NCBI GenBank assembly: GCA_003165595.1 | Contig: PLWQ01000004.1 | Span: forward strand, 1 to 64,000 | Direction: 5' to 3' | Source of the DNA: Fibrobacterota bacterium | Lineage (GTDB): Bacteria > Fibrobacterota > Chitinivibrionia > Chitinivibrionales > FEN-1185 | DNA length: 64,000 nucleotides | Shown: positions 16,429 through 29,225 of the stretch, in pieces | Numbering within the stretch: position 1 is the stretch's first letter | Layout: the number at the start of each line of letters is the position of its first letter | Program-made: the position numbers and the translations under genes | Notes under the pieces: generated by a model | Seen by the model: only the letters and a program-made list of their open reading frames with translations | What the model was told of the DNA's origin: nothing | The model's database searches: none

Positions 16429-16878
16429 CTATTTAGCTGTGTTTTGGCCCAAATACGGTGAGAAACCGGTAATCTCTGATTTTCTTTCGACCGCATTTTC
16501 CATGTCCTTCAATATGCCAGATTGTGTCTGGCGTTTTGATCCTTTCGCCAATTCGCCAGATCCGATCTGGCGAATTTCAGGACTTCGTGAAGAATAGGTC
16601 AAATAGAAAGTCCTGAAATAACGCAAATTTGTTGTGGAAAACCCTCGGCCATACTTCTGGCTAAGCTTTTCAGATAATTCTTCAATCACCTTTTCGCCGT
16701 ATCCTGCGCGGTTCTTGCCGCCCTGAATCTCCTGAACGATTTCACGTCCGATAAGCCAGTAAGCAATAACCATATTACTATTCACAGACCGAAGGACATT
16801 CTTTCTCGCTTGTTCGAGAATAGTTGCGACTCGTTTGAAAAGCGAGTCTGCCTTCTTGGCGACATTCTTCATATTCAT
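16429..16878 (-). pseudogene. DUF1016/YhcG-type nuclease gene, 3'-truncated
   Basis: The 149-residue frame matches the DUF1016 N-terminal helical domain (SNMVIAYWLIGREIVQEIQ, GYGEKVIEELSEKLSQKYG, FSTTNLRYFRTFY) that precedes a PD-(D/E)XK nuclease domain in full-length proteins of about 350 residues. Here the nuclease half is missing: after about residue 105 the sequence becomes low-complexity and stops at 16429. The full family is linked to defence islands and to processing of stalled DNA. The truncation marks the left edge of the AT-rich defence island, beside core genes. Confidence 0.75.
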
Positions 16879-17418: not shown

Positions 17419-18972
17419 TTAGGTTTTGCTTCTATTAAAAACATCAAATGTATTAGCTAAATTCTGTGATTGATTTTCAGAAGGATTTACAAATAATGGT
17501 ATTTTTGTATCTGTAAAAATATCTTGTCTTTCTGTTAAAATGGTTCTCAAAAACGGGTCACCATCTGCATTGAGTTTATTGATCGATTCAGTCATTCCAA
17601 GCTGAAGATGTTTTGAAAGAAAGACCATCCAGATCAATTCAAAATTAGAATTTTTATCTGCTGCAAAAGCCATTTCAGCCTTAATCAAATCAGTAAGTAT
17701 CAACTTTAAATTATGTTCTTCGTCATATTCTTTGTAAATTGCTGCTATTATTGCTATAACAAGACAAATGGTCTTTTCTGATTCACGTTTGAGCAGCATA
17801 AGTAAGCTAAAGACCTTCAACAATTGCTTTTTACGTGATTCGGGTCTATGGGAAAATTGAATTTTGAGTTCATGTTTTCGATTGAACAGCTCACTTAGAA
17901 ACTTTTCCAATAAACTTGTTCCTGGAAAATGCCTATGAATATCAAGAGCTTTCAATAAAGTATGTTCAAACTTAGAAAACGGAACAGTATTGACCTTCCG
18001 CAAGGATAACGGATAATATTCCCGGTCATGTTCGCGATAAAGTCCTTCGGGTAAGTTGTGAACCTTCGTCTTATGTTCATTAATAAGAAGATTAAAAGCA
18101 GATAGCTCGTCGGCAAGACATTTGGATATTTTCTTGGCTTGTCCTTCGTTGTCGCAAAGGATTCGGTAGTCATCTTTAAAACGTGTTGCTAAAAAATGGA
18201 TTCCGAGATATTTCAATTTAATGGATATGTTTCTGTCAATACGAGCAAGCACAATTTCAGCGATCAAATCACTTAAGGCAGAGCCTACTGGTATCCCATT
18301 GGTTCGTTTATCGTTTGCAGATTGAATCAACTTGTCGATTTTGCAGCCTGTCAATAAGATGTCTTTGTCATTTAACGCTTCTTCTCGACCATGCAAAGCC
18401 CAACCTATACTATGCGTGTAAATAGAATTATAAAAATTTGTTATGTCTGTACGTATGAGAAATCTGAAATTATGCGCTTCAGCAACAAGATCTTTTTCTG
18501 CCATTTCAATCCACTCATAAATCATTCTGCCTGCGCGAAGTTTACTAAGATTACCGTTTGATTTGGAATCCAATGGAAGTGGAAAGCTATAAGAGTAAAT
18601 TGCAAGGTCTTTATGGAATAAATGAGCGACGATCGCGTCCCAATCCTGAAGAATCCAGTAAACAATATCGTGGTAATTATGAGGATGCTGAATGGCGAAT
18701 ATTCTTGAAGTCAAATGCGACTTTGGATACGAAATAGAAACCAGATGTCGGCGAGGTAATTTCTTTAAATCCTTATGAAATGGCTCAATATTCAACCCGA
18801 AAGAACCAATTTTGAAACATGGCGGAAGGACATAATGTTCGGGAAAATAACCTTCGTTTAAAAGCCAATCGGCAATTTTATCTTTAGAGATGCCAGTTAA
18901 GAGTCTTTTGGAATTATGAAAATGCGATTGTGGCAAAGGCAGAAAATCGTTATTATCTAAAATTGCTGCCAT
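17419..18972 (-). CDS. Reverse transcriptase of the Abi/DRT (unknown-group) type
   Basis: A 517-residue protein with an RT palm: RTDITNFYNSIYTHSIGWAL (first catalytic Asp, D176), GIPVGSALSDLIAEI, and RFKDDYRIL holding the [YF]xDD motif as FKDD at 265-268. There is no maturase, retron or integrase domain; the C-terminal 220 residues are helical, as in Abi-type and defence-associated RTs. The start lies 5 nt after the hsdR stop, so it is translated with the restriction operon. This suggests anti-phage function, probably abortive. I cannot name the RT subgroup from sequence alone. Confidence 0.85.
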   Translation of the reverse strand: MAAILDNNDFLPLPQSHFHNSKRLLTGISKDKIADWLLNEGYFPEHYVLPPCFKIGSFGLNIEPFHKDLKKLPRRHLVSISYPKSHLTSRIFAIQHPHNYHDIVYWILQDWDAIVAHLFHKDLAIYSYSFPLPLDSKSNGNLSKLRAGRMIYEWIEMAEKDLVAEAHNFRFLIRTDITNFYNSIYTHSIGWALHGREEALNDKDILLTGCKIDKLIQSANDKRTNGIPVGSALSDLIAEIVLARIDRNISIKLKYLGIHFLATRFKDDYRILCDNEGQAKKISKCLADELSAFNLLINEHKTKVHNLPEGLYREHDREYYPLSLRKVNTVPFSKFEHTLLKALDIHRHFPGTSLLEKFLSELFNRKHELKIQFSHRPESRKKQLLKVFSLLMLLKRESEKTICLVIAIIAAIYKEYDEEHNLKLILTDLIKAEMAFAADKNSNFELIWMVFLSKHLQLGMTESINKLNADGDPFLRTILTERQDIFTDTKIPLFVNPSENQSQNLANTFDVFNRSKT

Positions 18973-18977
18973 GAGGA

Positions 18978-21284
18978 CTACGCCGCTTTCTCATACAAAT
19001 ATTTCTGAAAAGCAATAAATGTCTGCCGAATCTTGTCTGTTCCGCCAAGTGCCTCTGCCGCATCGCTTATTTCGTGATACTTAAGCTTGAGCAGATCGGG
19101 CAGTTTTTCTTGGTCGAGCTCCTCAACACCGGTTTCAATATATTTCGACAATACGAATTCCAGAAATTCCTTTTGTTTCGCATCCAGGCCGTTGAAAATG
19201 CGCGTTTCTGCCAGTGTCACCCGTTGTTCTCGTGTTATCGGCTTAACGGCAAACGAGACGTATTCCAGGACATCGAACAGGTCGCTTTTTTCGGCGTTAA
19301 TTAGCCGCTGAAGTGTCGAGAGTTCATCTTTGCCGAACCCTGCATCTGCTATCTTTTCCAAAAAGGTTTTCCTGGTCGCCGGAACAGACCATATTTTCCG
19401 CAGTTCATCTTCATTTTTAAAAAAGGCAGGCAGTGCACCGTAAAGGCTTTTCAGGAATTCCTCAACGGAAATTGGCTTGCCGTCAGGGCTCCAGAACGAA
19501 GTTGCGATCATGTGCTGGATTTCACGCTCTTTGCCATCCCGCAATTTAATCCTGAGCTTGGCCTTTGGCGGCGGCGGTTCAGGTGGCGGATTTTCCGGGC
19601 CGGGTCCTTTGGGTGGTTTGGGTTTTTTTGGTTCCAGTTCTACCGGCTCGCCGTCCCATTCGGGGTCGGAAAAATGGTGGTACGCATCAACGAAGTCGTA
19701 GATAGTAAAATATTCTTTCCCGTCAAAAAGGCGAGTGCCGCGCCCGATTATCTGCTTGAATTCGATCATCGAATTTATGGGGCGCATCAGAACGATATTG
19801 CGGATATTGCGAGCGTCAACACCTGTGGAAAGCTTCTGTGAAGTGGTCAGAACAGTAGGTATGGTCTTTTCATTGTCCTGAAATTCCCGGAGGTATTGCT
19901 CGCCGATACCTGCGTCATTTGCCGTGACACGCACGCAATAATTCGGGTCTTTACTTTCTTTAAATTGGTTGATCAAATCCCTAACGACAGCGGCATGAGC
20001 CTGAGTTGCACAAAAAACAATGGACTTTTCCTTCTGATTGGCTTCGTCCAGGAAGATATTGACTCGTTTGGATTCTCGTTCCTTGATCTCAATGATTTTG
20101 TTAAAATCCGGTTCCTCATATAGCCTGTTTTCTTCGACTTCTCCTTCGATAACCTGGTCGTCCGGAGTGAAAATGTAATCGTCAAGCGTTGTCTTTATTC
20201 GTTTGACCTTAAACGGCGTAAGAAAACCGTCATTGATACCCTCTTTAAGAGAATAGACATACACCGGTTCGCCGAAATATTTGTATGTGTCAATATTTTC
20301 CACGCGCTTGGGTGTTGCGGTCAATCCTAATTGCACGGCAGGAGCGAAATATTCAAGAATGCCGCGCCAATTACTTTCATCATTTGCGCCGCCTCTATGG
20401 CATTCGTCGACAACAATAAAATCAAAATAGTCGGCAGGGTATTCTCCAAAATAGGGAACCGGGTTTCCGGTCATATCCTTACCACTCATGAAAGTCTGAA
20501 AAATGGTAAAGAAGATACTACCGTTGGTCGGAACATTTCCGCGTCTTCGAATTTCATCGGGCTTGATTCGCACCAAAGCATCTTCGGGGAAAGCTGAGAA
20601 TGCGTTGAATGCCTGATCCGCAAGGATATTCCTGTCCGCTAAAAACAGAATGCGCGGGCGTCGACTGCCATCGCGTTTCAGGTTCCAGCGCGTATAAAAG
20701 AGCTTCCATGCAATCTGAAAAGCAATAAAGGTTTTGCCGGTTCCGGTAGCCAGCGTTAAAAGGATTCGATTTTTCTCTTCGGCCATGGCTTTAAGTGCAT
20801 TATTGACTGCGATTTCCTGATAATAACGGGCGCTTTTTGTGCCACCGACATCTTCAAAGGGAACTGAATCGAACTTGTCTTTCCACTCGTATTGCTTTGC
20901 AAAGGTTTTTTTCCAGAGTTCGGCGGGCGTTGGGAAGGAACGTATCGTTTTCTCTGTGCCGGATTTCATTGAAATTTCATAAATCGCTTTGCCATTTGAG
21001 GCATAGGTGAAATCAATGTCCAGTTTCGTTGCATAGGTTTTAGCTTGGGCTACTCCTTCGCCGACTTCCTGTCCGTCGCTTTTTGCCTCGATAACGCCGA
21101 TCTTAATGTTTTTGTAAACAAGAACGTAATCGGCTATCATCGGTTTAGCCCGGCCACCGCCGACCTGGATCTTTCCGGCGGTTATGTGGTGTTCACGAAG
21201 GACTTTTGATCCTTCTACAACACCCCAGCCGCTGTCCTTGAGGGCCGGGTCAATAAGTTCTGCTCGGGTTTCTGATTCGTTCAT
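18978..21284 (-). CDS. hsdR: Type I restriction enzyme, R (motor and nuclease) subunit
   Basis: A 768-residue EcoEI-like HsdR. The N-terminal nuclease motif is D52 with E66-x-K68 (ADYVLVY ... GVIEAKS). Superfamily 2 motor motifs follow: ATGTGKT (179-185) and DECHRGG (DECH at 293-296), then the helicase C domain with IGRGTRL. A Pro-rich linker (PKPPKGPGPENPPPEPPPP) separates the motor from the C-terminal EcoEI R-type domain. It translocates and cuts unmodified DNA together with HsdM and HsdS. A 34-codon ORF precedes it, and the reverse transcriptase follows 5 nt after its stop. Confidence 0.95.
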   Translation of the reverse strand: MNESETRAELIDPALKDSGWGVVEGSKVLREHHITAGKIQVGGGRAKPMIADYVLVYKNIKIGVIEAKSDGQEVGEGVAQAKTYATKLDIDFTYASNGKAIYEISMKSGTEKTIRSFPTPAELWKKTFAKQYEWKDKFDSVPFEDVGGTKSARYYQEIAVNNALKAMAEEKNRILLTLATGTGKTFIAFQIAWKLFYTRWNLKRDGSRRPRILFLADRNILADQAFNAFSAFPEDALVRIKPDEIRRRGNVPTNGSIFFTIFQTFMSGKDMTGNPVPYFGEYPADYFDFIVVDECHRGGANDESNWRGILEYFAPAVQLGLTATPKRVENIDTYKYFGEPVYVYSLKEGINDGFLTPFKVKRIKTTLDDYIFTPDDQVIEGEVEENRLYEEPDFNKIIEIKERESKRVNIFLDEANQKEKSIVFCATQAHAAVVRDLINQFKESKDPNYCVRVTANDAGIGEQYLREFQDNEKTIPTVLTTSQKLSTGVDARNIRNIVLMRPINSMIEFKQIIGRGTRLFDGKEYFTIYDFVDAYHHFSDPEWDGEPVELEPKKPKPPKGPGPENPPPEPPPPKAKLRIKLRDGKEREIQHMIATSFWSPDGKPISVEEFLKSLYGALPAFFKNEDELRKIWSVPATRKTFLEKIADAGFGKDELSTLQRLINAEKSDLFDVLEYVSFAVKPITREQRVTLAETRIFNGLDAKQKEFLEFVLSKYIETGVEELDQEKLPDLLKLKYHEISDAAEALGGTDKIRQTFIAFQKYLYEKAA

Positions 21285-21397: not shown

Positions 21398-22900
21398 TCA
21401 CGATGCGGTTCCTGTCAAGGCGCCAGAGAAGGCTTTGCGTAGTAGCGCTGTTTTAAGTAAATCAAGATTTGATAGTTTCTTCTGGTAAATTGATTCAAGA
21501 TTCTTGGTTTCTGCTGCCAGCCTATTCAGCTTGGAGACGATCTCAACCTGCACTTTAAGAGACGGAAAAGGAAAATTCTGATTTTCAAAAGTTGCCATAT
21601 TGATATTATCCCGCGCAGTGCCTTTTCCACATTCTTTGAGAAATGCCTTGAAGGATTGAAGCAGATATTCGACATACTCGTTATTTGCTTTCTTCTCGTC
21701 AACGATAATACCAATTACACTATCGGGGAAACATGCATCAAAGTCCAAAATCGCAGTCTCTCCAACATTTGCGCCAACTATTGCGATACAGACAGTGCCT
21801 CTGGGCCATAATTTACTTTGGGCTAACCCCATTTCATTATACGTTTGGGTGTAGGATTTTATCCAATGCGAAGAATTGCCAACATCGCCAGTTTGAATAA
21901 GCGGGTAAGAACCTCCAAGAATCTTTGAGTCACCTCTGGGCCTGTGTCTTGATTTGCCTCTCCCAAATTCAATTGAGATGCTAGAAAGGTTTTTAAGGCT
22001 CCATTGAGCCCCAGGGTTGGTAAAAAGACTTTTTAGATATGAATTGAATATTTCTCGGGAATTCGCCAGATTCTTCTCCGCGATTTCTTTCGCGCGGGAG
22101 ATGCCGGAAAATGCTTCGTCGAGTATGGCGACGATGCGTTTTTGTTCAGGGAGCGGGGGAAGAGGAATTGTTATGCTTTCAATTTGAGATTTATTGATAG
22201 AAGGAAACACTGCACCTGCATTGCCGACAATTTCTGACTCCTGTTTCACTAGAAAATTGAAAAGGTATTCAGGTTCAATGCCCTTGCCGGGCCTGATTGC
22301 TGCCAAACCACGTCCGATGCATATCTTTTTCGTTGAAAAGTTTACAGGGCCAACAGGAGCTCTAACCGACATTAAAATGTCACCAGCAAGTGCTTCTTTT
22401 GTTATCTCGGTTGTCCACGTAGTCGGTTCGGAAATGAACCTTTCGCCAAATTCTTTCTTACCTTGGTAGAAAGGTGTACCGTTTCCAACATTATTGTAGT
22501 ACTTTCCTTCGGGTGATTGGCCTGCAATCACAATACACACATCCCCAAGTTTCTTTTGTTCCCACCCCTTTCCCGCTCCAACCCCTGCATCCTCTTCTCT
22601 ACGATAAAACTCCTTCCCCACTCTGTCAATATGCTCTCTCAGCTTGTCATTCTTCAACGAATCATAAGCGGAAATATCAAAGGTGTACGGCAAGAACGAT
22701 TCATCAAGCGCGTCGAGCACGTCGGCAATGGTTTTCGTGTTGATATTGCCAAAGAGCGTCAAATCGATATCCGACCCTTCGCGGTAATTGCCCTTCGCGC
22801 GGGAGCCGTAGATGACCGCCTTTTCTATCTCGTGATAGCGCCTGAGAATGGCGTGTATTTTGGCCATAGTAGAATTGTCAAGTCCAAACAAAGGTTTCAC
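21398..22900 (-). CDS. hsdS: Fusion: MntA-type nucleotidyltransferase + type I specificity subunit HsdS
   Basis: Residues 1-105 are a minimal nucleotidyltransferase: G32-S33-x10-D44-x-D46 (GSRAKGNYREGSDID), then PYTFDIS and IDRVGKEFYRR. Residues about 112-500 are HsdS with two target-recognition domains: WEQKKLGDV ... PLPPLPEQKRIVAILDEAF, then WSLKNLSSI ... FPFPSLKVQVEIV. Junction is a short Gly-Ala linker (EEDAGVGAGKG) with no stop codon. The upstream gene, overlapping by 4 nt, encodes a HEPN protein of the matching toxin family. The NTase should AMPylate the HEPN toxin, as in the HepT/MntA system, while the HsdS part directs the restriction-modification complex to its site. Confidence 0.88.
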   Translation of the reverse strand: MKPLFGLDNSTMAKIHAILRRYHEIEKAVIYGSRAKGNYREGSDIDLTLFGNINTKTIADVLDALDESFLPYTFDISAYDSLKNDKLREHIDRVGKEFYRREEDAGVGAGKGWEQKKLGDVCIVIAGQSPEGKYYNNVGNGTPFYQGKKEFGERFISEPTTWTTEITKEALAGDILMSVRAPVGPVNFSTKKICIGRGLAAIRPGKGIEPEYLFNFLVKQESEIVGNAGAVFPSINKSQIESITIPLPPLPEQKRIVAILDEAFSGISRAKEIAEKNLANSREIFNSYLKSLFTNPGAQWSLKNLSSISIEFGRGKSRHRPRGDSKILGGSYPLIQTGDVGNSSHWIKSYTQTYNEMGLAQSKLWPRGTVCIAIVGANVGETAILDFDACFPDSVIGIIVDEKKANNEYVEYLLQSFKAFLKECGKGTARDNINMATFENQNFPFPSLKVQVEIVSKLNRLAAETKNLESIYQKKLSNLDLLKTALLRKAFSGALTGTAS

Positions 22901-23319
22901 TCGTGTTCCTGCTCGTGAAGAGATGTAAACTTCTCCGTAAGGCTTTTGAATGCCGGAAAGAATTTATCGGTAATTGAATCCAACACCTCATCTGCAAGGG
23001 CTTCATCATACGTGTGCGAGGTAAGGTTTCGCGCTTTTATCATTTCCATCCAGATTTCCCCATCGGAAACAAGCCCGGATTTGAATGCCTGTCGGGTAGT
23101 GTCTTTGGAACCGATGAGCGTGGTATAGCCCTGTTCCGCGAGATAGTCTTTCATCAGGTTCCACGCCAATTCATGCGTATATTCAAAGCCTTGTATGAGC
23201 CCCTGTTTTTCAAGTTTGCTTAACGCGCGCTCCTTTGCGAGCGAGACAGCGCTCTCCAGTTCCCGGAACGCCTGCATATAATTATTAAACCGCTGTATCC
23301 AACGCACATCAGTAGCCAT
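22897..23319 (-). CDS. HepT-type HEPN toxin (HI0074 family)
   Basis: A 140-residue helical protein of the HI0074 family of nucleotidyltransferase partners. It carries R97-x4-H102-x-Y104 (RNLTSHTY), the RX4HXY motif of HEPN toxins; the Arg and His are the RNase site, and the Tyr is the residue AMPylated by MntA in characterised pairs. GFEYTHELAWNLMKDYL is the conserved core helix. It overlaps the start of the nucleotidyltransferase-HsdS fusion by 4 nt and lies 14 nt after hsdM, so toxin, antitoxin and restriction genes are one transcription unit. Confidence 0.85.
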   Translation of the reverse strand: MATDVRWIQRFNNYMQAFRELESAVSLAKERALSKLEKQGLIQGFEYTHELAWNLMKDYLAEQGYTTLIGSKDTTRQAFKSGLVSDGEIWMEMIKARNLTSHTYDEALADEVLDSITDKFFPAFKSLTEKFTSLHEQEHE

Positions 23320-23333
23320 ATTAAAATGCCTCC

Positions 23334-24794
23334 TTATTTTTTTACTAGCTCCTGGATTGTCTTTAGAATCTCCACACTCTCCCTGTCCAATTCTTTCATC
23401 TCATCAATAATCTCCTTCGGGTCACGGAGCTCGGTTTCATCTTTTCTGTTCGGATTCTTCACCGACAAATCCCACGCCCCGCTATCCACGTCAGATATTT
23501 TCACACACCACGAATTGGGCGAATCCGCCTTCGTCTTTTGTAGTCTCACAAATTCCGAGAGGTCATTTTCATTCAGCGGATTGGTTTTGCCCAAATTTCT
23601 GTCAAGATTAAGTTGGTAATACCAAACCTTCTTTGTCGGTTTTCCTTTTTCAAAGAAAAGAACAACGGTTTTTACTCCTGCACCGGTGAAAACGCCTCCG
23701 GGCAGGTCAAGTACGGTATGAAGGTCGCAGCTTTCTAGAAGCATTTTCCGCAAAGAGACCGACGCATTGTCGGTATTTGACAGAAAGGTATTTTTAATGA
23801 CTATGCCAGCGCGACCACCTGCCCTTAGGATCTTTATATAGTGCTGAAGAAATAGAAAGGCGGTTTCGCCTGTTTTTATCGGAAAGTTTTGCTGAACTTC
23901 GGCCCGCTCTTTACCGCCGAATGGGGGATTTGTCAGAACTATATCGTAGCGGTCTTTTTCCTGAATATCCGCAAGGTTTTCTGAAAGCGTATTGGTGTGA
24001 ATGATATTCGGAGCTTCAACACCATGCAAAATCATATTCATGGTACCAATGATGTACGCTAAGGACTTTTTTTCTTTCCCGTAGAATGTTCTTTTCTGTA
24101 AGGTCTCAATATCTTTGGTCGTTAGGTTCTTACTGGCTTTGAGGTATTCGAAGCCTTCACATAAGAACCCTTCCGAACCACCGGCACCGTCATAAATAGT
24201 CTTCCCAATTTCAGGTGCAACAACCTTTATAATGGTTTTTATAAGAGGGCGCGGAGTGTAATATTCGCCGCCATTACGACCAGCATTACCCATATTCTGA
24301 ATTTTAGCTTCGTACAGGTGGGACATCTCATGCTTTTCCGCATGAGAACGGAAGCGGAGTTCGTCTATCAGGTTAATGACTTCCCGAAGATTGTAACCGC
24401 TCTGGATTTTGTTCTTAAGCTCGCTGAAAATTTCACCGATTTTGTAGATGATCGTGTCGGGGCTTTCTGCATCGGTTTTGAACTTTTTCAAATAGGGGAA
24501 AAGCTTATGGTCAACAAAATCCTTGAGATCGTCGCCGGTTGATGCTTTATGATGGTCAAGCTTGCCGTCTTTTCCCTTGGGCATTGCCCATTTTTCCCAA
24601 CGATATTGAGCGTCGATGATTTCCGTGTATGGTTTTCCGGAAAGTTCGGAAGCGGTTTTCTTGTCTTTTTCGAAATCGTCAAGATACTTGAGAAAAAGAA
24701 TCCATGATGTTTGCTCAACATAGTCAAGCTCACTGCTGCAACCTGCGTCTTTGTGGAGAATGTCGTCGATGTTTTTGAAGGTTTGTTCGAACAT
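23334..24794 (-). CDS. hsdM: Type I DNA methyltransferase, M subunit
   Basis: This 486-residue N6-adenine methyltransferase has the HsdM N-terminal helical domain (1-150), motif I YDGAGGSEGFLCE (201-213), and catalytic motif IV NPPF (289-292). The motif I form DGAGGSEGF replaces the common DPACGTGGF but keeps the SAM-binding pattern. It pairs with HsdS to methylate the target on host DNA. It begins 5 nt after the HEPN-like gene at 24800 and is followed by the HepT gene. Confidence 0.94.
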   Translation of the reverse strand: MFEQTFKNIDDILHKDAGCSSELDYVEQTSWILFLKYLDDFEKDKKTASELSGKPYTEIIDAQYRWEKWAMPKGKDGKLDHHKASTGDDLKDFVDHKLFPYLKKFKTDAESPDTIIYKIGEIFSELKNKIQSGYNLREVINLIDELRFRSHAEKHEMSHLYEAKIQNMGNAGRNGGEYYTPRPLIKTIIKVVAPEIGKTIYDGAGGSEGFLCEGFEYLKASKNLTTKDIETLQKRTFYGKEKKSLAYIIGTMNMILHGVEAPNIIHTNTLSENLADIQEKDRYDIVLTNPPFGGKERAEVQQNFPIKTGETAFLFLQHYIKILRAGGRAGIVIKNTFLSNTDNASVSLRKMLLESCDLHTVLDLPGGVFTGAGVKTVVLFFEKGKPTKKVWYYQLNLDRNLGKTNPLNENDLSEFVRLQKTKADSPNSWCVKISDVDSGAWDLSVKNPNRKDETELRDPKEIIDEMKELDRESVEILKTIQELVKK

Positions 24795-24799
24795 GCAAA

Positions 24800-25477
24800 T
24801 TATTCCTTGTGATTCTTAAAGATGTTTGGTCGTGTCCGTCTGATAAGTGAGTCAATGAACTGAAAATAGGGAATTGCGTTTGCCTCAGCGTGTTTAACTT
24901 GCGCAATGCCCTGAATCATCGGTAACGATGCAATTCTCGTAATACTGGTTTCTTCAAATTGCAAACCTTGTTCTGTAACCTTCGCGCCGGTTAGGGGTAT
25001 GCTAATTTCGCTATGAGTTTTTGATGAATCCGCGTGGCTATAAGCATTTCGTAAACATTCACGAATCCTATTTAGTTCTTTTTTGTCTTCTTTTGTAATG
25101 ATACCTTGAGTGCAGGCGGCATTGATGTTTTTGTCCATATTGTTTGAATTGTACGCTGCTGTAGATTGAGCGGTCGCATTTGTGAGTTTTTCAATAAGAT
25201 CCTTCCCTTCGGAGCTAAAATTGGCATTTTTGTAAATCAGAGCGATTTTAAGATATTTTTCAATCATGTGGTTGGTTAAGGTTATCGCAGCCTGACATAA
25301 ACCGAAGATAATACAAATACAAATTTCATTCCGAAGTGGATTTACTTCTGTATCGCCTTCATAGGAATTCTTGAATATTTCGCGGATTACAGGATAATTT
25401 GAGAAGATATTCTTCTGCCTGGACTGAATCAGCTCATTAACTTCTGCTAAATATTTTGTTTTTGTATCTTCATCCAT
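24800..25477 (-). CDS. HEPN-like protein heading the restriction operon
   Basis: About 225 residues from ATG 25477; a GTG at 25591 would add 38 Lys/Ala/Pro-rich residues but has poor spacing. A long helical stretch (CICIIFGLCQAAITLTNHMI) is followed by RIRECLRNAYSHADS, in which R-x4-H (RNAYSH) fits the HEPN RNase motif. The helix-and-motif order resembles other HEPN proteins. The family is not known and no nucleotidyltransferase partner lies next to it, apart from the one fused to HsdS two genes later. A 7-bp hairpin (25497-25517) precedes the ATG. It may be an RNase effector or sensor for the system. Confidence 0.55.
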   Translation of the reverse strand: MDEDTKTKYLAEVNELIQSRQKNIFSNYPVIREIFKNSYEGDTEVNPLRNEICICIIFGLCQAAITLTNHMIEKYLKIALIYKNANFSSEGKDLIEKLTNATAQSTAAYNSNNMDKNINAACTQGIITKEDKKELNRIRECLRNAYSHADSSKTHSEISIPLTGAKVTEQGLQFEETSITRIASLPMIQGIAQVKHAEANAIPYFQFIDSLIRRTRPNIFKNHKE

Positions 25478-25699
25478 ATTTTCTTGTTTTTCCTTCGCCC
25501 GCTTAGGACGAGCGGGCTTGTCTTCGGGCGCGGCTTTTATTAAAATAGCCTTTGCATTTAAGGGCTTTAACTTCTTTCTTAATTCCGGCACCCCCCTGAA
25601 TTTCTTTGTCTTTTTCCTGCGCCGCCTTTTTCTGTCATTAAACGGGCTGGTCTGGATTTACTCTATTTTCTAGCCGCCGCCTATCAAGTTCATTGTTTA

Positions 25700-25971: not shown

Positions 25972-28347
25972 CTATTCTTGAGAAATGTAGCCCGCTCGAA
26001 CCGCGTTACCTAATACAGGGCTTAATTGGGCATCTTTAGAAATCATGATAATTAGTTGATAGCGTGCTCGTGTGAATGAAAGGTACATCTCCCGGTATGC
26101 TTGTTGTTCAAGGGTTGCAGAAAGTCCACTATGAGGTCCTACATTGGGTGGTAAGATGCCCTTTTCGAGACCTACGCATATTACAGCATCATATTCTTGG
26201 CCACCAACAGTTTCAGGCCGGGCAATGACAATTATCGGATGGTTTCTTTCAATGGTTTCACCCCTTTTCAGCTGTATATGAACATTGAGTTCGCGGTTAC
26301 CTTTCATAAAGAACTCCTCAATCTCATTCCAGTATTTGTCCGCATGAACAATAATTGCGATTTGTCTGGTGTTGATTCTGCGCAATTCCCTTATGACACG
26401 AAGGAGCGCCTTTGGCAAGTTGGCTGTTTCCCCCTGATTAATTACCTTTGGCTTAGAAGCCAAAGGATGGTCAGATGACGCAAGAGAAAGCGTTCCAGAA
26501 GTGAAATCAGGAAACTCAGTCGTGAAAAGATCTGTAGTTCGCTGAATAACGAAAAATGCTAAAGATAGGATTTCTTTCGTACTACGGTGGACAGTATTAA
26601 GCATTTGATTGGAAATGTTCTCAATGCCGAGTCGACCGAATCCTGCAGAAATGGCACCACGAAGCTCTTGGGCCTCATCAAGAGCAAGCGCAATAGGAAG
26701 GTAAGATTTATCGCCCTTCGTAAGTAGATGAAAAAGTAATCGTTCATTTTCATTAAAGAGCTGCGCTTCGTCAACTAATAAGAAATCATATCCACTTCGT
26801 TTTCGTTTCATCTCCCAAAGAGGGGTTCGAAAATGCCCAAGAACAGATAATGCAATGTCGTCTGAATCAAGAACCTCGTATTCTTCAAACATCTGTCGGT
26901 TGTATTCAACAAAAACATCGAATACTACGCTACGCTCATTCTGAGTTAGATGCCCATGTAGGCGACTGAGGGGTTTCTCTGATTCAACGTATCGCTTTCG
27001 ATTATTAACCAAATCTCTACCTTTAATTGTAACCCCTATTTCTGAGCATATTAAATCCACAAAATGTTCAATTAAATCTGGTTTATCGATTACTCGTGGA
27101 ATTGTTGTCGATTTCTTCTCTTGGTCAACTTCTTCCTTGTCCCATTGATCTATTCTTAACCTCTTCTCGTCTAGCACCTTCTTAAGACAATTAGATGCAA
27201 CTTCCCTTTGGAACAGTTTGGTTTGGTATGCATCCTTATCTATAACTGACGTAGGTGAAGTACCCAATTCTTCTTGACAATAATCATATAGCGTCGAAAC
27301 TCTCAAATGAACTTCAGAGTTTGCTTCAAAATATTTTGCTGCGTCAAGAGTCCTAAAGCGCCCAATCACCGTATTCACCATCTCGTTATTGTGCGAAATA
27401 TAGAGAATCCTCCTCTGAGTCCTCTCTGCATCTGCCTTCGATAGGAGCCTCATTGTTAGGAGTTGCATAATGAGTGTTTTGCCTGATCCTGCTGCTCCCA
27501 TAATTCGGAGTGGCTGCTTAAAGATTATATCAGATTCGGCAATCGCCCGCTGTTCTTGAGTTAAGGGAGAGGCGTCAGCCAGCCAGTGTTTAAAGTCCCA
27601 ATCCGTTGTCATATAATCATTGGGTGATTGGGCATGAATCTCCTCAAGAGTTGGCAAAACAGAAATCAGGCTCTCTTCAGATTCTCTTGTTGCGGATTCG
27701 GGAGCAAATCTGTCTCGTATGCCCGTAAATAATTTGGTGTCAAGCGCTGGCCTTCTTAGTGATTGACTGAGAAGGTCATGTGAATATTGAATCAACGTGG
27801 GCAGAATATCTCCCACAGAGGTTACAAGATCATGCAATCCATCCTTTGTGCCATTCCATGGGCCAACACATAGGATTGAACGTGACTCAAATCCTGCCTC
27901 TGACTTGAATAACCCCTCCTTATAACCAATACTGAATTGACGTGCTTTTTCCCCACGTCCAGCAAGGCAGCAGCTAATATTGTCCTTTAGGGACCTGTGA
28001 ATAATTGATTCGGGGAGCAAAAGGCCTTGGAGCCTTTGACTGATAACGAAGATGCACCTCTCAAAAACTTCTTGAGATATTTCTTTCTGGGAAAACAGGC
28101 CTATCTGTGGGTCCAAGGAAATATGACCCCATTCTTCTATCCCAGTGGAGGATAAGTAGTCAGTGTTCCAAATTGCGAGGATCTGATTCTTATATGATGC
28201 AATGCGCAAGGCTCCTATTGCTAAAATAGAATCCTTGAGATTCGATACCTGCAACAATTTGGGCAATTCAGAAAATAAGGAATTGTGATACGACGGAGTA
28301 CGAAGAAGCCATTCAGCAGTCTTCTGTGTAATGCTCAAGTATTTCAT
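25972..28347 (-). CDS. UvrD-like superfamily 1 helicase of a two-gene module
   Basis: A 791-residue protein. Residues 1-260 are an unrecognised N-terminal domain. The helicase core begins at LTQEQRAIAES, with Walker A GAAGSGKT (284-291) and Walker B VDEAQ (525-529); later motifs include HRSTKEIL and the C-terminal VGGQEYDAVICVG and YLSFTRARYQL, which are UvrD/Rep-like. It probably unwinds DNA or RNA-DNA using ATP. It starts 2 nt after a 291-residue gene of unknown family, so the two are co-translated. Its AT-rich composition and position in the island suggest a defence role. No nuclease motif was seen. Confidence 0.82.
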   Translation of the reverse strand: MKYLSITQKTAEWLLRTPSYHNSLFSELPKLLQVSNLKDSILAIGALRIASYKNQILAIWNTDYLSSTGIEEWGHISLDPQIGLFSQKEISQEVFERCIFVISQRLQGLLLPESIIHRSLKDNISCCLAGRGEKARQFSIGYKEGLFKSEAGFESRSILCVGPWNGTKDGLHDLVTSVGDILPTLIQYSHDLLSQSLRRPALDTKLFTGIRDRFAPESATRESEESLISVLPTLEEIHAQSPNDYMTTDWDFKHWLADASPLTQEQRAIAESDIIFKQPLRIMGAAGSGKTLIMQLLTMRLLSKADAERTQRRILYISHNNEMVNTVIGRFRTLDAAKYFEANSEVHLRVSTLYDYCQEELGTSPTSVIDKDAYQTKLFQREVASNCLKKVLDEKRLRIDQWDKEEVDQEKKSTTIPRVIDKPDLIEHFVDLICSEIGVTIKGRDLVNNRKRYVESEKPLSRLHGHLTQNERSVVFDVFVEYNRQMFEEYEVLDSDDIALSVLGHFRTPLWEMKRKRSGYDFLLVDEAQLFNENERLLFHLLTKGDKSYLPIALALDEAQELRGAISAGFGRLGIENISNQMLNTVHRSTKEILSLAFFVIQRTTDLFTTEFPDFTSGTLSLASSDHPLASKPKVINQGETANLPKALLRVIRELRRINTRQIAIIVHADKYWNEIEEFFMKGNRELNVHIQLKRGETIERNHPIIVIARPETVGGQEYDAVICVGLEKGILPPNVGPHSGLSATLEQQAYREMYLSFTRARYQLIIMISKDAQLSPVLGNAVRAGYISQE

Positions 28348-28349
28348 AA

Positions 28350-29225
28350 TTATTTTCCTCCCGTAATATTGGAAATGAATCTGGATATAGTATCGTCAGA
28401 AAAGTCTGGTGAACCGATTCGTGCATAAAGACAAATAAATCTTGTTAGCAGGTCATGCATGAAATGCGATTCAATTACAAGAACTTTTAAAGGCCTATTC
28501 TTCGCAAATTCCCTTGCTGTTAGGAAATGAATTGAAAGCGAGTCTATCTGAGCTGCCCAATCTGTTATGTGAATATCCTGAGCAGAGTTGAACACCTCAA
28601 TTGGAGCAGTTAAAGGATATCTAAATAGCACGAGCGAAGGCTCCTTGATAACGGACCACTCTACAGGATTGTTATCTGGAGGCAGGAAATGTATATCATT
28701 GGCAAAGCTGTTACGAACAATCCTTTGGAGGATTCTATCAATATTCTTACCAAAAAATACGGATAGACTTTGCATATCCGCACTTGAAGATGTTCCAGAC
28801 ATCATGCTAGATAAATGGTTAAGACCTGATCGAATCCGTACCGTCAGATTACTGTTTTTTATGGTTTCCAGCTTTGATATTTCATCTGCCAATCTGGCCA
28901 CATCAGGCGCTGTTGGAAACTCGTTAGAAGGGACCAGTTCCTTTCCTTGAATAAAATTTACTGATTCTAATAAACCAAGCATGGTGCTTCGCAGTTCAGA
29001 GTAGAAACAGCGCGTTAATAGCCAATTACGTATAGGGATTATTGGCAAATAGGTAAGTGATTCAACTTTATCATTTGCAAGATCACACGCAGGGGTTATT
29101 ATAAGTCCTGGAGCAGTATCGCATTTAAGCAAGCCATAGGTTGGCAAATTAGACCATATATCGCCATTTCTGTGAAATAGAGATGGACTTGTGTCGTAAA
29201 AGCGGGTTGGACCTGCAAGCGCCAT
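28350..29225 (-). CDS. Unknown 291-residue protein paired with the helicase
   Basis: The product has no signal peptide or transmembrane segment. An N-terminal block reads GDIWSNLPTYGLLKCD, then GLIITPACDLANDKVESLTY, in which a P-A-C-D motif sits at about residues 45-48; the remainder is helical with a leucine-rich centre. I do not recognise the family, though the ITPACDL block looks conserved-motif-like. It is the first gene of a two-gene unit with the UvrD-like helicase, with 2 nt between them, and is preceded by repeat copy C. It may be the sensor or effector of the module. Confidence 0.6.
   Translation of the reverse strand: MALAGPTRFYDTSPSLFHRNGDIWSNLPTYGLLKCDTAPGLIITPACDLANDKVESLTYLPIIPIRNWLLTRCFYSELRSTMLGLLESVNFIQGKELVPSNEFPTAPDVARLADEISKLETIKNSNLTVRIRSGLNHLSSMMSGTSSSADMQSLSVFFGKNIDRILQRIVRNSFANDIHFLPPDNNPVEWSVIKEPSLVLFRYPLTAPIEVFNSAQDIHITDWAAQIDSLSIHFLTAREFAKNRPLKVLVIESHFMHDLLTRFICLYARIGSPDFSDDTISRFISNITGGK

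Follow-up and report, generated by a model that had tools for sequence, protein, structure and literature searches.

A nucleotidyltransferase fused to HsdS beside a HEPN gene in a type I restriction-modification operon of Fibrobacterota

Why would a nucleotidyltransferase (NTase) resembling the antitoxins of HEPN toxins be joined to HsdS, the specificity subunit of a type I restriction-modification (R-M) enzyme? The question was raised by a locus in a 64,000-nucleotide stretch of DNA from a Fibrobacterota bacterium (contig PLWQ01000004.1; hereafter the window), where two open reading frames had originally been predicted to encode a HepT-type HEPN toxin and, overlapping its gene by 4 nt, an MntA-type antitoxin fused to HsdS. 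Here we propose that the locus is a class I HEPN/MNT (type VII) toxin-antitoxin system embedded in a type I R-M operon, the antitoxin enzyme being part of the S subunit, and we put the probability of this reading at roughly 0.58. The parts were already known, as was the notion that HEPN toxins can be linked to R-M loci, and the surprising element is a convergent fusion. No paper describing an NTase::HsdS fusion was found in the open-access literature, in agreement with the original prediction that knew of no such system, although HEPN toxins that guard R-M systems have been published (PrrC-EcoprrI; PMC3710099).

The fused gene and its operon

The two reading frames (22897-23319 and 21398-22900), their 4-nt overlap, and the domains assigned to them were borne out. 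In a single frame, Pfam identified a Polbeta domain at residues 14-103 (E 6e-15), followed by two stretches of Methylase_S (E 3e-42), the first starting from residue 111, and the full-length HsdS model PADLOC PDLC03122 covered residues 113-496 (model positions 5-387 of 387). The predicted motif residues were placed correctly in both proteins, namely R97-x4-H102-x-Y104 in the HEPN protein and G32, S33, D44, and D46 in the NTase, whose motif G32 S33-x10-D44-x-D46 plus D75 kept all active residues. A stop codon between residues 105 and 112, named beforehand as an observation that would overturn the fusion, was absent from the assembly; with one frame and no stop, the antitoxin domain and the specificity subunit form one polypeptide, as had been supposed. 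Because the linker contains no stop and the sole in-frame start codons among residues 91-150 were GTG at 94, 121, and 124, a separate start for HsdS was not apparent. The junction includes a short G run, where a one-base assembly error could create or abolish the fusion in the window. An AlphaFold2 model of the fusion, usable for the NTase domain only as the HsdS part was built without an alignment, had a pLDDT above 90 over most of NTase residues 11-100 and showed no long C-terminal helix.

Table 1. Features of the restriction locus and adjacent genes (positions in the window)
Feature	Position	Strand	Details
Defence reverse transcriptase RT_UG14	17419..18972	-	E 1.5e-193; begins 5 nt after the end of hsdR
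hsdR, EcoAI/FtnUII family	18978..21284	-	817 bits, full length
Fused gene, MNT-type antitoxin NTase + HsdS, 500 aa	21398..22900	-	GTG start
HsdS part, two target-recognition domains, residues 113-496	21413..22564	-	HsdS model and Pfam
Short linker, residues 106-112	22565..22585	-	No stop codon
NTase domain (Polbeta/NTP_transf_2), residues 1-105	22586..22900	-	G32 S33 D44 D46 D75
Overlap GTGA, HEPN stop / fused-gene start	22897..22900	-	4 nt
Putative HEPN toxin gene, PF08780/HI0074 family, 140 aa	22897..23319	-	Q43, E46, R97-x4-H102-x-Y104
hsdM, N6 methylase, EcoAI-like	23334..24794	-	Ends 14 nt upstream of HEPN
Context gene	24800..25591	-	Precedes hsdM by 5 nt; weak match to DUF4145 (HEPN-like), RNAYSH (Rx4H) motif

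The operon of the window is read on the minus strand in the 5' to 3' order hsdM, HEPN, NTase::HsdS, and hsdR. With hsdM, an hsdS of two target-recognition domains, and hsdR found together and all full length, it was classified by sequence as a type I R-M system of the EcoAI-like family, for which methylation and ATP-dependent cleavage are predicted. The GTGA overlap likely couples the translation of HEPN to that of NTase-HsdS. The RT_UG14 gene may share the restriction operon, given its start so close to the end of hsdR. On the other side, the context gene preceding hsdM possibly encodes a second RNase of the same operon. Two further minus-strand regions were observed in the window. At 25972-29225, a UvrD-like helicase gene almost overlaps the gene of a 291-aa protein without a family match, perhaps forming a second defence pair, and at 16429-16878, a short DUF1016_N (PDC-S02) ORF of 149 aa appears truncated.

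The HEPN protein and its tested relatives

The HEPN protein matched the Pfam family NTase_sub_bind (PF08780) with an E-value of 8e-46 and belonged to the HI0074 family TIGR01987 (101.5 bits vs a cut-off of 55.8). Against the HepT/MntA equivalogs NF047751/NF047752 of NCBIfam, the scores were 23.6 and 25.4 bits, below the cut-off of 60. Hence the part of the original naming that stood was that of a toxin paired with an AMPylating antitoxin, by homology and motifs, but the pair is of the HI0074 type rather than HepT and MntA proper. Class I HEPN/MNT systems are defined by an RX4HXY HEPN (PF01934/PF08780) adjoining a GSX10DXD MNT (PMC7641770), and both elements were found in the window (PF08780 with R97/H102/Y104, and G32 S33 D44 D46). 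The HepT/MntA pair of Shewanella oneidensis is of the same class, with the same two motifs in adjoining genes (PMC7641770), but it differs from the window pair, which scored below both equivalog cut-offs, in the long C-terminal helix of MntA and in the absence of a fusion to HsdS.

Among solved structures, the best match for the HEPN protein was the Legionella pneumophila HEPN toxin 8XDJ (E 6e-48, residues 3-138), and the fused NTase matched the Legionella MNT 8XEH (E 7e-20). The Legionella HEPN is a Mg-dependent RNase with its site at Q44/E47, and its RNase activity was almost unchanged in R98 or H103 mutants; the MNT, which lacks a long alpha4 helix, binds tetrameric HEPN at 1:4 and puts three or four AMPs on Y105 (PMC11586414). 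The active residues of HEPN and NTase align with those of the Legionella pair by sequence: Q44/E47 correspond to Q43/E46 in the window, R98/H103 and the AMP-acceptor Y105 are also conserved, and both NTases are short, carry GSx10DxD, and are without helix alpha4. Since the R98 and H103 mutations had little effect in Legionella, R97 and H102 of the window need not be catalytic. In contrast to the free 108-aa MNT of Legionella, the NTase of the window is the N-terminus of HsdS in an R-M operon. With the Legionella homologue as the one precedent, the HEPN protein of the window would be a toxic RNase and the NTase would AMPylate its tyrosine. It was the only PF08780 HEPN in this genome, and no close second copy of the fused NTase was found there; 18 other Polbeta matches were present, and some of these proteins might replace the fused NTase.

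The NTase could instead modify HsdS, HsdM, or another target, with HEPN acting as a substrate-binding helper, as HEPN domains fused directly to MNT often turn regulatory and lose their catalytic residues (PMC3710099). The HEPN protein of the window, however, is separate and retains E46, R97, H102, and Y104 as in nearly all of its relatives, which makes such a domesticated role highly improbable.

Recurrence and origins of the fusion

The genome search suggested by the original prediction recovered eight other loci with the same hsdM-HEPN-(NTase::HsdS) slot. These come from three further major groups and from two additional genomes of the window's own phylum, and Pfam confirmed both the NTase and HsdS domains in 8/8 of them. 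Scanning of genomes for the NTase and inspection of long frames identified L140 (G187), L141 (G304), L142 (G1097), and L143 (G1252), which are arranged as hsdM-HEPN-(NTase::HsdS)-hsdR, although L143 ends before hsdM. An additional fusion, L167, carries a distant NTase subfamily that led to the plasmid locus L179 and to L195 and L196, both in the phylum of the window. A restriction of the fusion to the window within its phylum, considered earlier, was rejected when this second subfamily gave the latter two loci. The catalytic residues were kept across the fused sets compared except in L142 (H to D in RX4HXY) and L167 (Q to K), and L195 and L196 carry RNITSHTY.

The locus L179 lies on the finished plasmid pZMOB01 of Zymomonas mobilis ATCC 10988, where HEPN, the fused 'subunit S', and hsdR are consecutive and hsdM lies across the record start. 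It shares with the window the gene order, the fusion, and the 4-nt overlap, which was also found in L142, but it represents the other HEPN-NTase subfamily, and its HsdM/HsdR match the profile of the other fused loci. The expectation that similar fusions may exist in databases was borne out by a public record without comment, WP_014466389.1, whose annotation reads simply 'restriction endonuclease subunit S'; the predicted NTase-HsdS protein of Z. mobilis is 527 aa long. An assembly artefact or one-off event as the source of the window's fusion is weakened by the eight other fused loci, one of them on a finished plasmid. No relatives were found on viral contigs, phage records gave one weak match, and among the matches listed on plasmids none was a fused match to the window protein or to its NTase. 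Two close NTase relatives, L146 (G039) and L147 (G029), are 70% and 56% identical, and no HEPN gene was detected alongside them.

In a tree of 129 HEPN-NTase pairs, the nine fused pairs require seven state changes, and a single clade of fused pairs was rejected (p 4e-44; p 2e-4 for subfamily 1 alone). An earlier tree of 125 pairs with five fused pairs, made before the second subfamily was included, required four changes. A single origin of the fusion was therefore rejected on the tree, and a single fusion event is not tenable from these sequences; some of the state changes may reflect loss of the fusion or swapping of cassettes, as repeated gain, loss, and swapping look alike on the tree. The restriction genes also differ. 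HsdM and HsdR of the window are EcoAI-like, of another type I family than the fused loci compared. HsdM of L140-L142 belongs to one other family and is 24-28% identical to that of the window over the matched part, and HsdR of L143 is of the same family as in L140-L142. The closest relative found of the window's restriction genes, L149 (HsdM 69% identical), is arranged as hsdM-hsdS-hsdR, with HEPN and NTase absent from the locus. These sequence comparisons suggest that restriction systems may repeatedly link themselves to a suicide toxin.

Solo NTases adjoin unrelated housekeeping genes, and Methylase_S was not among the families listed in a Pfam scan of 42 of their downstream neighbours. By hand reading, roughly ten of these genes share the strand of the NTase and are tightly packed with it, but are not fused to it. 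With tight neighbours as the control, HsdS was fused more often (Fisher p about 0.013-0.017, on small, hand-curated counts); the test without this control gave p 3e-6, a value set aside here since gene packing confounds it. A preference for HsdS over other tight neighbours is suggestive, not strong. The NTase was also fused once each to a LysA-like protein (L010) and a sugar transferase (L145). In L148/L010 (G023), the same NTase type is joined to an apparent diaminopimelate decarboxylase-type protein, with a HEPN gene preceding it, and in L145 (4586-5548), the NTase forms the C-terminus of an apparent bacterial sugar transferase and is followed by HEPN.

Unfused versions occupy the same slot, and hence fusion is not required. 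In L075, the end of the NTase gene and the beginning of hsdS overlap by 4 nt, and hsdS is broken downstream, apparently by a mobile element; in the Acetobacter plasmid pAPA01-020, hsdS is interrupted by an IS. Nitrosococcus oceani Noc1201-1205 resembles the window in its order of methylase, HEPN (DUF86), Pol-beta NTase, HsdS, and R, with parallel expression changes (PMC3772326), but its NTase and HsdS are separate genes. In both L075 and L180, the NTase is intact and separate from an interrupted hsdS, with a transposase gene nearby or within. The overlapping but unfused arrangement of L075, the LysA-like and sugar-transferase joins as chance events, and the modest significance of the tight-neighbour test would all fit a mostly neutral fusion, in which the stop between overlapping genes was lost and the NTase stayed an ordinary antitoxin whose link to HsdS only equalises expression. 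Against this, the fusion arose more than once, across two type I families and four major groups, it occupies the hsdM-hsdS slot without exception, and other tightly packed genes are seldom joined; we regard neutrality as unlikely.

Consequences of an antitoxin built into HsdS

To the gene order, fusion, intact motifs, and recurrence observed directly, the proposed toxin-antitoxin reading adds inferred toxicity, AMPylation, and trigger. The HsdS-borne NTase would AMPylate Tyr104 of the HEPN RNase and hold it off, with one NTase on every HsdS and hence on every methylase complex, and HEPN would be translated just ahead of NTase-HsdS through the 4-nt overlap. With the antitoxin as part of the S subunit, loss of HsdS would leave newly made toxin unmodified: if hsdS were lost, unmade, or destroyed while HEPN was still synthesised, new HEPN would cut RNA and the cell would arrest. 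Survival would thus be tied to keeping HsdS, which amounts to addiction, and a second line of defence may be provided once a phage attack removes the enzyme. Because AMPylation is covalent, toxin that is already AMPylated should stay off, and release would need either new toxin made without the NTase or removal of AMP. For the same reason, a rapid guard is a poorer fit than addiction or slow abortive infection, except where HEPN would also be retained by binding. An extra domain at the N-terminus of HsdS need not disable the enzyme, since joining HsdM there in EcoKI can leave restriction intact (PMC3510504).

A more rapid response was considered, in which NTase-HsdS holds a HEPN oligomer on the enzyme and phage anti-restriction or a change in DNA state quickly releases or activates the RNase. 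The original prediction had likewise envisaged a direct guard against phage proteins that would attack HsdS or degrade the enzyme. The precedent is PrrC-EcoprrI, whose HEPN RNase gene lies inside a type I R-M locus, as in the window, and which leads to suicide upon restriction failure; activation on inhibited restriction in the window would be a proposal by analogy. From PrrC-EcoprrI and the general proposal for HEPN and R-M systems (Anantharaman et al. 2013, PMC3710099; review PMC12707154), a guard against phage anti-restriction would be reasonable, and the binding of tetrameric HEPN by the Legionella MNT (PMC11586414) and the recurrence of the fusion on the subunit that nucleates the enzyme are consistent with it. 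However, PrrC is a single ABC-HEPN protein held by contact, whereas in the window the HEPN is a protein of its own and the putative AMPylating domain is covalently part of HsdS. An ABC-NTPase sensor domain as in PrrC was not found by Pfam on the nuclease of the window, a 140-aa protein with only PF08780/HepT-like matches, and AMPylated toxin would remain off. Such a holding complex with quick release is rather unlikely.

A broader form of the built-in antitoxin reading is tentative and less probable. The S subunit would have evolved repeatedly into an RNase antitoxin, independently in the EcoAI-type window and the other loci, and the enzyme itself would be the sensor, so that phage anti-restriction removing, unfolding, or occupying HsdS would stop AMPylation and lead to arrest. 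If the built-in antitoxin reading holds, single polypeptides have come to combine toxin-antitoxin and restriction systems, repeatedly and by convergence, and such loci offer a clean test of whether suicide toxins guard or keep R-M loci, as the sensor and the antitoxin would be the same molecule. Some proteins labelled only 'restriction endonuclease subunit S' bear an unnoticed putative AMP-transferase domain, and deleting hsdS from strains that encode them may be toxic.

Additional genes were observed in several of the fused operons. In L167 (5239-8678), a single restriction operon contains two HEPN-NTase pairs of different kinds; the NTase of the first is fused to HsdS, and that of the second is followed by another NTase-like half. 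Directly after the fused hsdS, extra genes of the RhuM-Fic, Schlafen/AlbA_2, and PD-(D/E)XK types were found in L140 (7078-8028), L142 (7195-9198), and L141 (4921-5364), and it is possible that these operons gather several effectors.
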